A DNA stretch of 64,000 nt, taken from assembly GCF_900636765.1 (NCBI RefSeq), contig NZ_LR134313.1, positions 310,001 through 374,000 on the forward strand. The letters run 5' to 3'. The DNA is from Neisseria canis (GTDB lineage Bacteria; Pseudomonadota; Gammaproteobacteria; Burkholderiales; Neisseriaceae). Under the pieces are notes generated by a model. That model ran no database searches, was not told the origin of the DNA, and was given only the letters and a program-made list of their open reading frames with translations. Position numbers and translations under genes: made by a program. Positions 33,238-62,658 of the stretch are shown here, piece by piece; the first letter of the stretch is position 1, and each line of letters begins with the position of its first letter.

Positions 33238-33427
33238 CCTATCTGTCCTTTAACCTGAGATTTTCGGCCGGTTTGAAGCATTCAAACGCCTTTTCCCCTT
33301 CGGTGGGCACTGCTGCGCCGCTCTCCAGATGTTTGTGATAAATGCAGTCCTTTTGCCTGAGCGATTTAAGGGTGTCTGCGCCTTCGGCGGTTACGGTGTA
33401 ATCGGGTGTAACGCTCTCCTGCACGGG
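33238..33427 (-). promoter_or_regulatory. Tandem glycine riboswitch
   Basis: On the minus strand two aptamers lie in series. Aptamer 1 (about 33425-33344) has GGAGAGCG, CCGCCGAAGGCGC and CTCAGGCAAAAGGACTG. Aptamer 2 (about 33333-33239) has TGGAGAGCG, CACCGAAGGGG and TCTCAGGTTAAAGGACAG. These are the conserved glycine-aptamer signatures with the usual short linker. Glycine binding should turn on gcvT. The platform is likely the hairpin CCGCAC-AGAT-GCGTTGCGG near 33205-33230, ahead of the gcvT start. Confidence 0.95.
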
Positions 33428-33658
33428 GATGATTATGGCTAAAATCCCCCCGAGCGGCAAGATTTTCCTCAAGAAAAACCCTTCGGCGGCGGCATATGGC
33501 TGATGCAGGCGGTTTGCGTATTCATCCGTTCAACTAAAAAAACATATAATTTTAAAAAAAAATAATTTTTTAAACTATTGTGCGTTAAATAAAATTATCA
33601 TATATTTGGATTCCAGCACTCTGCATTGTCTACATTAAAAGAAAAAAAGGATGAAACC

Positions 33659-47383: not shown

Positions 47384-48826
47384 TTAAGTCTCGCTGCCGC
47401 CCACGGTAAGCCCTTCGTCAATGCGCAAAGTCGGCTGCCCCACGCCCACGGGCACGCTTTGGCCGTCTTTGCCGCACACGCCTATGCCTTTGTCTAAAGC
47501 CATATCGTTACCAATCATGCTCACATGCTTCAACACTTCGGGGCCGTTGCCGATGATGGTAGCGCCTTTCACCGGATATTGCAGCTTGCCTTGCTCCACC
47601 CACCACGCTTCCGAAGCGCTGAACACAAACTTACCGCTGGTAATATCGACCTGGCCGCCGCCGAAGTTTACCGCGTAAATGCCTTTGTCGATCGAAGCAA
47701 TGATTTCTTCAGGGTCGTGCCCGCCGCTTTCCATAAACGTATTGGTCATACGCGGCATGGGCGCGGCTGCATAGCTTTCGCGCCTGCCGTTGCCGGTAAC
47801 CGGCACGCCCATCAGACGGGCATTGGTTTCGTCTTGCAGATAGCCGACCAAAATGCCGTCTTCAATCAGAACATTGCGTTTGGTTTCATTGCCTTCGTCA
47901 TCAATATTGAGCGAACCGCGCCGATCGGCAATGTCGCCCTGATCAATCACGGTAACACCTTTTGCTGCAACACGCTCGCCTATTCGGCCTGAAAAAGCGC
48001 TGGTTTCTTTGCGGTTGAAGTCGCCCTCCAAACCATGCCCCACCGCTTCATGCAGCAGCACGCCCGGCCAACCGCTGCCCAACACCACATTCATGGCTCC
48101 GGCGGGCGCAGGGCGCGCCTCCAAATTAATCAGCGCCTGCTTAACCGCCGTATCGACATAGCTTTTCAGCACTTCATCGCTGAAATAAGTCAGATCAAAG
48201 CGCCCGCCTCCGCCGGAGCTGCCCATTTCGCGCCGATCGCCCTGCTTGGCAATCACGGTTACGCTCAAGCGCACCAGCGGGCGGATATCGGCTGCATGTT
48301 TGCCGTCCAAACGGGCGATGTAAATCAAATCGTGCTCACAAGTCAGCCCCGCCATTACCTGCACAATGCGCGGGTCGGCCGCCTTAGCCAATGCCTCCAC
48401 TTTATTCAACAGCTCAACTTTGGCTGCAGAATCCAAACTGTGCATTGGATTAACCGTTTGATGCACCGCTTTCCCGCTTACCGGCAAAGGCACATGCACA
48501 CGCCCTTCCCCGCCGATCGAACCAATTGCGCGCACCGCCTCAGCCGAACGCGCAATGCTCTCCATGCTCAGATTATCCGCGTAAGCAAATGCCGTTTTTT
48601 CACCCGAAACTGCGCGCACACCGACGCCCTGATCAATCTGAAAGCTGCCGGATTTCACCATTCCCTCTTCCAGATGCCAGCTTTCAAAAGCCATGCGTTG
48701 GCAATAAATATCGGCGTAATCCACTTTGTTGGCACCGATAATGCCGAGGCTTTTTGCCAAGGCTTCAGGAGAAAGCTGATTGGCACCAAGCAGGTCCCGC
48801 ACAACGGTTTGATAAGTATTCTGCAT
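47384..48826 (-). CDS. tldD: Metalloprotease TldD
   Basis: 480 residues. The HExxxH zinc motif is HEAVGH (259-264) followed by GLEGDFNRK. Works with TldE (PmbA) to process peptides such as microcin B17 precursor and to degrade the CcdA antitoxin; tldE is not in the window. Followed by selO on the same strand. Confidence 0.95.
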   Translation of the reverse strand: MQNTYQTVVRDLLGANQLSPEALAKSLGIIGANKVDYADIYCQRMAFESWHLEEGMVKSGSFQIDQGVGVRAVSGEKTAFAYADNLSMESIARSAEAVRAIGSIGGEGRVHVPLPVSGKAVHQTVNPMHSLDSAAKVELLNKVEALAKAADPRIVQVMAGLTCEHDLIYIARLDGKHAADIRPLVRLSVTVIAKQGDRREMGSSGGGGRFDLTYFSDEVLKSYVDTAVKQALINLEARPAPAGAMNVVLGSGWPGVLLHEAVGHGLEGDFNRKETSAFSGRIGERVAAKGVTVIDQGDIADRRGSLNIDDEGNETKRNVLIEDGILVGYLQDETNARLMGVPVTGNGRRESYAAAPMPRMTNTFMESGGHDPEEIIASIDKGIYAVNFGGGQVDITSGKFVFSASEAWWVEQGKLQYPVKGATIIGNGPEVLKHVSMIGNDMALDKGIGVCGKDGQSVPVGVGQPTLRIDEGLTVGGSET

Positions 48827-48880
48827 ATTTGTTAAGCGTATTTAAGAATTTGAATTAGCTGGTGATTATACTGGATTTAA

Positions 48881-48913
48881 ATGTGCTTTAACATGCTGCT
48901 TAAATTCGCTAAA
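48881..48913 (+). repeat. Direct repeat flanking the Fur sRNA, left copy
   Basis: ATGTGCTTTAACATGCTGCT (then TAAATTCGCTAAA) resembles 49385-49416 at roughly 80 per cent; see the right copy. Confidence 0.5.
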
Positions 48914-49020
48914 TATACTGCATACAGAAATTTTATCGTTTGCACCGCTATTTTCTTATAATTTTTTTAATTACTTATCAATCAGTTACAAAAACAAAGC
49001 AAATTTACTTGATAAATATA

Positions 49021-49048
49021 TTGATAATTATTATCGTTTATGTATAAT
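49021..49048 (+). promoter_or_regulatory. Fur box overlapping sRNA promoter
   Basis: TGATAATTATTATCG (49022-49036) matches the 7-1-7 Fur consensus TGATAATNATTATCA at 14 of 15 positions. It overlaps the -35 TTGATA (49021-49026), with TATAAT (49043-49048) 16 bp on. Iron-bound Fur should block this promoter. Confidence 0.9.
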
Positions 49049-49054
49049 AAAACC

Positions 49055-49227
49055 CACTCAGTTATCCATAGCTGAGAGCCATTAAACATCAAAACATCTA
49101 TTCCCTTTTTTATTTAACCATATTGCTTTTTGGAGAATGCCTATCAGCTGAAACAATTCCCTTACCTCGAATACTCAAAACCGAAACCACACCACCCGTT
49201 GCCTGAAACAACGGGTGGTGTGGTTTT
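49055..49227 (+). ncRNA. nrrF: Fur-repressed sRNA, probable NrrF
   Basis: No open frame exists between tldD and the next gene, yet a Fur-controlled promoter and a perfect 16-bp terminator bracket about 173 nt. The 5' part can fold CTCAG...CTGAG (around 49057-49076); the middle is single-stranded and pyrimidine rich (TTCCCTTTTTTA). Size, Fur control and intergenic location match NrrF, the neisserial RyhB analogue that represses sdh and other iron-containing enzyme genes. Sequence identity to NrrF cannot be confirmed here, and exact ends are inferred. Confidence 0.78.
49185..49227 (+). terminator. Intrinsic terminator of the Fur-regulated sRNA
   Basis: AACCACACCACCCGTT (49185-49200) pairs perfectly with 49210-49225, 9-nt loop, ending in TTTT. 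There is no other gene it could serve. Confidence 0.92.
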
Positions 49228-49246
49228 ATAAAATTAAGAATCATGA

Positions 49247-49278
49247 TGCCTGTCTGAAAAGCAACTTTCAGACAGGCA
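49247..49278. terminator. Inverted DUS pair
   Basis: DUS 49247-49258, complement 49267-49278, 8-nt loop; a second transcription barrier after the sRNA. Confidence 0.65.
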
Positions 49279-49384
49279 TCTAAAAAGTGTTTCATAAATC
49301 CCAAGCATCACCACAAAAATGGACATTCCGCGAAGCGCCGCTTATCTTTTTGATTGTTTTTTCGATATAATTCCTCGATTTCGG

Positions 49385-49416
49385 ATGCGCTTTAACATTT
49401 GGCTTAAATGCTTAAA
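49385..49416 (+). repeat. Direct repeat flanking the Fur sRNA, right copy
   Basis: ATGCGCTTTAACATTTGGCT (then TAAATGCTTAAA) in the same orientation as 48881-48913; about 45 bp before the metallo-hydrolase start. Confidence 0.5.
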
Positions 49417-49461
49417 ACATCCTTGTTATTCATTCTAAACACTTAAACAACCGGTTGGAAA

Positions 49462-62074: not shown

Positions 62075-62229
62075 GCTTTTACCTTTCCGATTGATATCGA
62101 GTATGTGACGGGCTTTGTTGCGTAAAGGCTTATCATTAAAAACCTTTAGCTATCCGATAGTGGGCAAAATGCTTAAAAATGCGTATTATAACGGCATTTA
62201 CACAACTTCGGTACGGATGGAAAGATACT

Positions 62230-62658
62230 ATGGAAAGCAATATTGCACAATTAAAAGACAGCGGTCTGAAGGTTACCGGCCCGCGCCTGAAGATTTTGGA
62301 TTTGTTTGAAACGCACGCCGAAGAGCATTTGAGCGCAGAAGATGTGTACCGCATCCTGCTCGACGAGGGCATTGAAATCGGCGTGGCCACCATCTACCGA
62401 GTGCTGACCCAATTCGAGCAGGCCGGCATCCTTTTGCGCCACCACTTTGAAACGGGCAAAGCGGTGTATGAATTAAATGTGGGCGGCCACCATGACCATA
62501 TCGTATGTGTAAAATGCGGTAAAGTTACAGAATTCCACAACGAAGAAATCGAAAAACTGCAAGACAAAATCGCTGATGAAAACGGCTTCCGCATCGTTGA
62601 CCATGCTTTATATATGTATGGCGTGTGCGGCGATTGCCAGAAAAAAGAAAAGCGTTGA
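62230..62658 (+). CDS. fur: Ferric uptake regulator
   Basis: 142 residues from ATG 62230 (GGAAAG 7 nt upstream); an ATG 17 codons earlier is in a poor context. [13 protein letters not shown] (15-27) and [18 protein letters not shown]-binding helices, HHDHIVC metal site, and Zn-binding CVKC (93-96) and CGDC (133-136). Iron-dependent repressor, expected to act on the Fur box at 49022 in this window. Confidence 0.97.

Follow-up and report, generated by a model that had tools for sequence, protein, structure and literature searches.

The DNA analyzed here, a stretch of 64,000 nt from Neisseria canis (referred to below as the window), contains a short transcription unit between tldD and a gene for an MBL-fold protein, and this locus raises two questions: which RNA does it encode, and which messages could this RNA control? 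A preliminary description had suggested an iron-repressed small RNA, probably NrrF, transcribed from a strong promoter overlapped by a Fur box. The results presented below led us to the view that the locus is an nrrF orthologue, whose product would be a Fur-repressed, trans-acting antisense RNA with seeds for the petABC and sdhC leaders; we assign this explanation, taken as a whole, a probability of about 0.93.

The putative control elements of the locus and its landmark genes are the following:

49021..49048, + strand: promoter of the sigma-70 type (TTGATA at 49021-49026, spacer of 16 nt, TATAAT at 49043-49048; 11/12 matches), an arrangement also present upstream of the relatives' copies
49022..49036, no strand assigned: Fur box TGATAATTATTATCG, overlapping the promoter
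47384..48826, - strand: tldD, the divergent neighbour, a synteny marker outside the RNA (NF008006, E 1.6e-188)
62179..62658, + strand: fur, the presumed repressor gene (PF01475, E 2.8e-46)

The promoter, the Fur box, the fur gene and both neighbouring genes were all located where the preliminary description had placed them (the export signal of the MBL-fold protein was judged by eye only). The Fur motif, in its familiar form, is a 7-1-7 palindrome, and the 15-mer at 49022-49036 agrees with it at 14 of 15 positions. Within this box, GATAATTATTATC (49023-49035) is the sole mismatch-free match in the window to the Fur-box pattern GATAATNATTATC; a first-order Markov model predicts 0.002 perfect matches per strand, and the one further place in the window has two mismatches, which is about the chance expectation.

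Of an initial set of 18 loci from relatives, 12 have tldD upstream of nrrF, in divergent orientation and inside the 1.5-kb flank, and in the other six it was not inside that flank. By tldD identity, Neisseria wadsworthii (97%) and Neisseria sp. 83E34 (95%) stand nearest among the named relatives. On the other side of the RNA, the MBL-fold gene lies on the same strand and starts 235 nt downstream.

The sequence TGCCTGTCTGAA, which we take to be the N. wadsworthii dialect of the DNA uptake sequence, occurs at 70 places in the window (none expected in 100 shuffles), many of them in close inverted pairs. One such pair (49247-49258 on the + strand and 49267-49278 on the - strand) is located directly 3' of the nrrF terminator.

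The Rfam model of NrrF (RF01416) aligned over its full length (1-160 of 160) with positions 49054-49226, with a score of 37.4 bits (E 9.4e-6 in 611 bases), and this was its single match in the 2.57-Mb genome (E 9.2e-6). The gathering score of the family, which is the Rfam listing cut-off, is 60 bits. NrrF was not listed in the default Rfam search of the window and was found only with a relaxed threshold; default annotation thus skips this copy because its score falls below the cut-off. Among 83 genomes of the family, 44 gave a match with RF01416, 21 of these above the cut-off, and the scores within the genus ranged from 35 to 204 bits, compared with a match in 1 of 14 control genomes, which was under the cut-off. 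Such end-to-end alignment, uniqueness in the genome and intermediate scores within the genus, together with the recurrent proximity of tldD, bear out the suggested assignment to NrrF: judging from its sequence, the locus is a diverged nrrF orthologue, ordinary in kind and overlooked by annotation. A glycine riboswitch aptamer (RF00504, 54.1 bits) is also present in the window, at 33335-33431 on the - strand.

The RNA has the following parts:

49054..49227, + strand: NrrF small RNA, approx. 174 nt (RF01416 at full length; start by homology)
49057..49076, + strand: 5' hairpin of 8 bp with a loop of 4, directly before the first seed (from the fold)
49079..49087, + strand: petA seed CCAUUAAAC, nt 26-34 of the RNA, within nt 21-34 validated against petA (PMC5586341)
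49132..49135, + strand: GGAG, part of the middle block, unchanged in all 19 aligned copies
49172..49185, + strand: 3' block UACUCAAAACCGAA, the proposed sdhC seed, identical in 19 of 19 aligned copies
49183..49227, + strand: intrinsic terminator hairpin of 19 bp with a loop of 7 nt (from the fold); the relatives pair here with different sequence

The start at 49054 was placed by alignment with the RNA of N. meningitidis, in which NrrF is an intergenic sRNA of NMB2073-NMB2074 (PMC5586341). The NrrF positions mutated in that work (C12C13G14, C21C22G23, C26C27 and C34) fit a numbering that begins at RF01416 model position 1 on locus L001; since the meningococcal start coincides with this model position, the RNA of the window should start at 49054.

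The whole RNA folds with a z-score of -5.9, and none of 200 dinucleotide shuffles folded as well. The terminator hairpin, which had been predicted to follow the promoter, ends at approx. 49227; its outermost stem pair is G-U and its U-run is short (UUUU). In the predicted ensemble, positions 49172-49182 of the 3' block are mostly unpaired, and its last three positions lie inside the terminator stem. A hairpin at the 5' place, with other stem pairs, is folded by most relatives (32 distinct single folds, inspected by eye), and several of them (e.g. G002, G005, G010 and G022) fold this place otherwise. RNAalifold did not recover the 5' hairpin from the MAFFT alignment A1, yielding only eight pairs, all of the terminator; we think that MAFFT misaligns this hairpin. 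Because it was read from single folds only, its covariation was not counted.

The U- and C-rich stretch between the petA seed and the GGAG is variable. The middle block (consensus GGAGTGCGCATATACGA) is common to most relatives and is altered in the clade of the window. At the positions corresponding to 49132-49148, most relatives carry GGAG followed by TGCGCATATACGA or near forms, and this conservation extends beyond the genus.

The distribution of NrrF was followed with a covariance model (R1) of the 3' half only, built from 12 sequences including that of the window, whose own score is therefore high by construction; the promoter and the 5' half are not part of this model. Matches were obtained in 61 of the 83 genomes of the family: 44 of 46 in the genus and 17 of 37 elsewhere, in four other genera. 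The two misses within the genus were G015 and the 68%-complete G018, and G013 matched weakly (E 0.002). Of the 44 genus copies found with R1, 23 miss the Rfam cut-off. The petA seed and the 3' block were present together in 39 of 46 genus genomes, compared with none of 46 for the reversed control pattern.

The 17 genomes of other genera carry the Fur box, the 3' block and the terminator, and in all 17 the Fur-box core lies 121-153 nt upstream of the block; the petA seed C[AG]TTAAAC was found in none of these 17 copies. One of them, that of G094 (contig C5, L264), was found by a pattern and not by R1; this pattern also matched two other places (in G012 and G014), and its control matched once (in G004). 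Two R1 matches without the 3' block, on contig C24 of G094 and at 2243340-2243432 of the window's own genome, were taken as chance. A scan of named genomes returned 15 stretches, 14 from Neisseria or Bergeriella and one from a Treponema MAG; the last, without a Fur box, was also taken as chance.

Chance was excluded as a source of the locus itself, because the 3' half recurs in 44 of 46 genus genomes and the Fur-box core stands upstream of nrrF in 38 of the 40 genus copies checked (it is missing in G022, and the copy of G052 is cut at a contig end). Beyond the pathogens, NrrF now reaches almost the whole genus (44 of 46 genomes) and four further genera.

In the MAG G022 (L018/L094), the RNA is present from CCATTAAAC on, and unrelated sequence replaces the Fur box and the promoter; this nrrF is a decayed, a rewired or a misassembled copy. 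Genome G015 (Neisseria, 99% complete, 4% contaminated) is without NrrF and also without a site for the 3' block in its sdhC leader, where the longest run is 5 nt; its petA leader keeps TTTAATGG.

With regard to the first target, nt 21-34 of meningococcal NrrF pair with the petA leader, as an E. coli reporter system with matched mutations demonstrated (PMC5586341). The corresponding target is intact in the genome of the window: GAGCCAUUAAAC (49076-49087) forms a perfect 12-nt pairing with its own petA leader, in which GTTTAATGGCTC, at -45 to -34, matches GAGCCATTAAAC of 49076-49087. The seed, in the form [CT]C[AG]TTAAAC, is kept in 40 of 41 genus copies extracted, and all 45 petA leaders read from Neisseria contain TTTAATGG. 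In terms of whole-RNA duplex energy, petA was favoured in four of five genomes (p<=0.02).

No petA family match was found in the nine genomes of genus g26 that were examined, nor in G065, and in G064 both NrrF and petA are present and the motif is missing from the petA leader. The petA leaders of g20 and g21, where NrrF was not detected, and of G062, whose NrrF is without the seed, contain TTAATGG or a near form. These leaders weaken the case for co-evolution of the petA leader with NrrF; since g20 and g21 carry a like element where NrrF was not detected, the leader element is kept for another reason too. The individual leaders L191 and L193 (g20) and L194 (g21) carry TTTCAATGGCTCGGTATTCC and TTTAATGGCCGGTATTTCCC. 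The window's own genome contains GTTTAATGGC at eight places, one of them nrrF (20 for the reversed pattern), and among the seven others only petA was recognized by eye as a leader match.

For the second target, the preliminary description had proposed a search of 49100-49180 against the sdhCDAB leader. Complementarity was indeed found, at nt 119-132 of the RNA (49172-49185), partly outside that interval, but the whole-RNA duplex energy did not support it. In the aligned sdhC leaders, which have otherwise diverged, CGGTTTTGAG or close forms are retained, and this is the reverse complement of the 3' block. Each genome's own block forms a perfect run of at least 8 nt with its own sdhC leader, 30-68 nt before the AUG, in 51 of 55 NrrF-positive genomes (42 of 46 in the first pass), the four with shorter runs being G013, G023, G047 and G060. 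In two control regions the runs of the block measured 5-7 nt (petA leaders, 45 stretches of 75 nt) and 4-7 nt (sdhC coding starts, 41 stretches of 125 nt). When NrrF was scanned along its length against the own sdhC leaders of 37 genomes, runs averaged 8.8 nt at the block and 4.9-7.0 nt elsewhere. In 44 of 46 genomes, the 22-nt block had a better duplex energy with the real leader than with shuffled ones (p<=0.05); in the window it amounts to -17.6 kcal/mol, against a shuffled mean of -9.9 (p 0.01). The site concerned, GTGGCTTTGAGTGTGTTGAGTATT, at -54 to -31, comprises two overlapping imperfect registers.

These counts are based on the sdhC leaders of 68 of the 83 genomes. Leaders were dropped for G010 and G022 (start not found), G014 (unread) and G095, G096 and G098 (without an SdhC family match), and nine further genomes were left out (G066, G068, G071, G075, G076, G078, G079, G089 and G093); the sdhC counts of the control comparison and of the scan along NrrF also leave out G013 and G048. 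For the first-pass and 22-nt energy counts, the NrrF-positive set was the 46 genomes fixed before the R1 search, and the co-occurrence counts given below use the consensus block. In G014, sdhA was found in two overlapping pieces in different frames (G014:C1:1750267-1752011), which represents a frameshift or an assembly error.

The strongest competing explanation accepts the nrrF orthologue and holds that the 3' block is conserved for other reasons (binding of Hfq or an RNase near the terminator, or RNA stability), that sdhCDAB is controlled through sdhD-sdhA, and that the likeness in the sdhC leader belongs to another regulator. Conservation near the terminator is usual for Hfq-binding sRNAs. 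The whole-RNA duplex energy is also on this side: the sdhC leader was favoured in none of five genomes at p<0.05 (p 0.85 in the window), whereas sdhD-sdhA reached p<0.05 in two of the five, including the window (p 0.02); we gave this test, whose outcome was mixed, less weight because it allows long loops and ignores structure, but its result stands. Furthermore, in the pathogen group (G003, G004, G007, G019, G043 and G052) the block has four As facing five Us of the leader, so that the sdhC pairing there has a bulge; in six g26 genomes, five As of the block face four or fewer Us. Finally, nt 19-86 of NrrF have been suggested to pair with sdhD-sdhA (PMC5586341).

Three observations speak against this explanation. 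First, when the two control regions are taken for comparison, only the sdhC leader stands out as complementary. Second, the sdhC site tracks the presence of NrrF: sites that match the consensus block over 8 nt or more occur in 50 of 55 NrrF-positive and in 2 of 13 NrrF-negative genomes (Fisher p 2e-7, a value inflated by kinship), with 36/41 against 1/2 inside the genus (p 0.26) and 14/14 against 1/11 outside it. Contrasts within a genus point the same way, G062 and G082 having both NrrF and the site, and G063 and G081 neither; the sdhC site of G062 was seen before its NrrF was found. Third, block and leader change together in several genomes: in 9 of 55 genomes the own block pairs over a longer run than the consensus block does (13 vs 9 nt in G048, 10 vs 7 in G006, 14 vs 8 in G090; also in G086 and G094), and in two over a shorter one, one of them the window, where the own block gives 9 nt and the consensus block would give 10.

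The association has exceptions. NrrF is present in G095 and G096, in which an SdhC family match was not found; G018 and G070 have sdhC sites of 8-9 nt, and NrrF was not detected in them; and G067 and G069, without NrrF, have 9-nt runs with the longer 22-nt consensus. In the window's own genome, TTCGGTTTTGAG with up to one mismatch occurs at 48 places including nrrF (16 for the reversed control); when 29 of the 47 other places were inspected by eye for a leader position, none lay before a recognized gene. Weighing both sides, we regard control through sdhD-sdhA, with a 3' block conserved for another reason, as possible but rather unlikely.

Far less probable is a second alternative, in which the RNA is not separate but forms a Fur-controlled leader of the MBL-fold gene. 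The two share a strand and only 235 nt part them, yet the 19-bp terminator and a hairpin of two uptake-like repeats stand in between, and among 33 other loci (some being two records of one place, many with only a 1.5-kb flank) the RNA persists, whereas proximity of the MBL gene to nrrF was seen only in the closest relatives (L093 and L096); this reading was rejected. Least credible of all is a conserved small protein: the preliminary description had seen no open frame, and although a mechanical 33-aa TTG ORF does exist at 49130-49231 and the 3' block reads YSKPK in most copies, the spacing between GGAG and the block falls in all three phases among 40 genomes (20/13/7), the frame through the block has stops in many genomes and a common start is absent, so that this reading too was rejected.

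Returning to NrrF as an antisense RNA with two seeds, we propose the following sequence of events. When iron is short, Fur would leave its box over the promoter, and NrrF would be made. The RNA would then offer two mostly single-stranded seeds: (i) CCAUUAAAC, right after the 5' hairpin, predicted to pair with the petABC leader at the 5' end of the cytochrome bc1 message, and (ii) ACUCAAAACC, right before the terminator, predicted to pair with the sdhC leader approx. 30-60 nt before the start codon. These duplexes would lower the translation or the stability of the messages for both iron-rich respiratory complexes. Control by Fur and iron, repression of sdhCDAB and direct pairing with petA have been described for NrrF of N. 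meningitidis (PMC5586341), and the RNA of the window strain probably behaves like that of its relatives.

The anatomy and orthology of this RNA, its complementarities and their conservation having been established, the order in which the seeds arose may be considered. The most conserved element of NrrF, ACUCAAAACC, has the look of an sdhC seed and a wider spread than the petA seed; we infer that the 3' block serves as the seed for sdhC and is the older of the two. We lean slightly towards a scenario in which NrrF is Neisseriaceae-wide, in at least five genera, its ancestral job was to act on the sdhC leader via ACUCAAAACC, and the petA seed was added in Neisseria onto a pre-existing element of the petA leader. 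This scenario was marked down because of the bulge in the pathogens, the two NrrF-positive genomes without an SdhC match and the better sdhD-sdhA energy of the window.

According to PMC5586341, the sdh pairing of NrrF has been neither validated nor delineated, and the NrrF literature searched describes no duplex between the 3' block and the sdhC leader, as far as the accessible parts of these papers go (the original sdh papers lay outside the search). A short candidate sdhC seed can now be named for this sRNA. The two-seed pattern across genera would, moreover, amount to a natural experiment, if a small one, in target acquisition by an sRNA.

Three groups of known systems invite comparison. 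The sRNAs NmsRA and NmsRB (RF02877) are neisserial as well, they also act on TCA-cycle messages, and NmsRA represses an sdhC-leader reporter too; unlike NrrF, they belong to another family and pair via anti-Shine-Dalgarno sequences (PMC5362039). No Fur box was seen over them, as far as inspected. Two tandem copies of the NmsRb family (RF02877) lie in the window at 2217-2308 and 2445-2535 on the + strand (91.5 and 100.6 bits).

The iron-sparing sRNAs of the RyhB and PrrF type are Fur-linked and iron-repressed, and lower sdh and other iron enzymes. The RNA of the window would resemble them in all of these respects, but no RyhB match was obtained in the window at the gathering threshold, and neither RyhB nor PrrF was among the 20 Rfam matches up to E 10 in 48850-49460. 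By these searches it is not classed as RyhB, although it is predicted to work like RyhB. BrrF is a further iron-sparing sRNA working alike (PMC7377471).

The closest counterpart is NrrF of the pathogens. The window copy differs from it in its low score (37.4 bits, below 60) and altered middle block, and is approx. 20 nt longer than gonococcal NrrF (154 nt; PMC5399841). It shares with meningococcal NrrF, in the same order, the Fur box over the promoter, the start nucleotide, the place of the 5' hairpin, CCAUUAAAC, GGAG, the 3' block and the terminator. It also has tldD on the same side, adjoining in most relatives and approx. 5 kb away in the gonococcal record. The meningococcal duplex with petA has a mismatch at nt 25, which is absent from the pairing of nt 24-34 of the window RNA.
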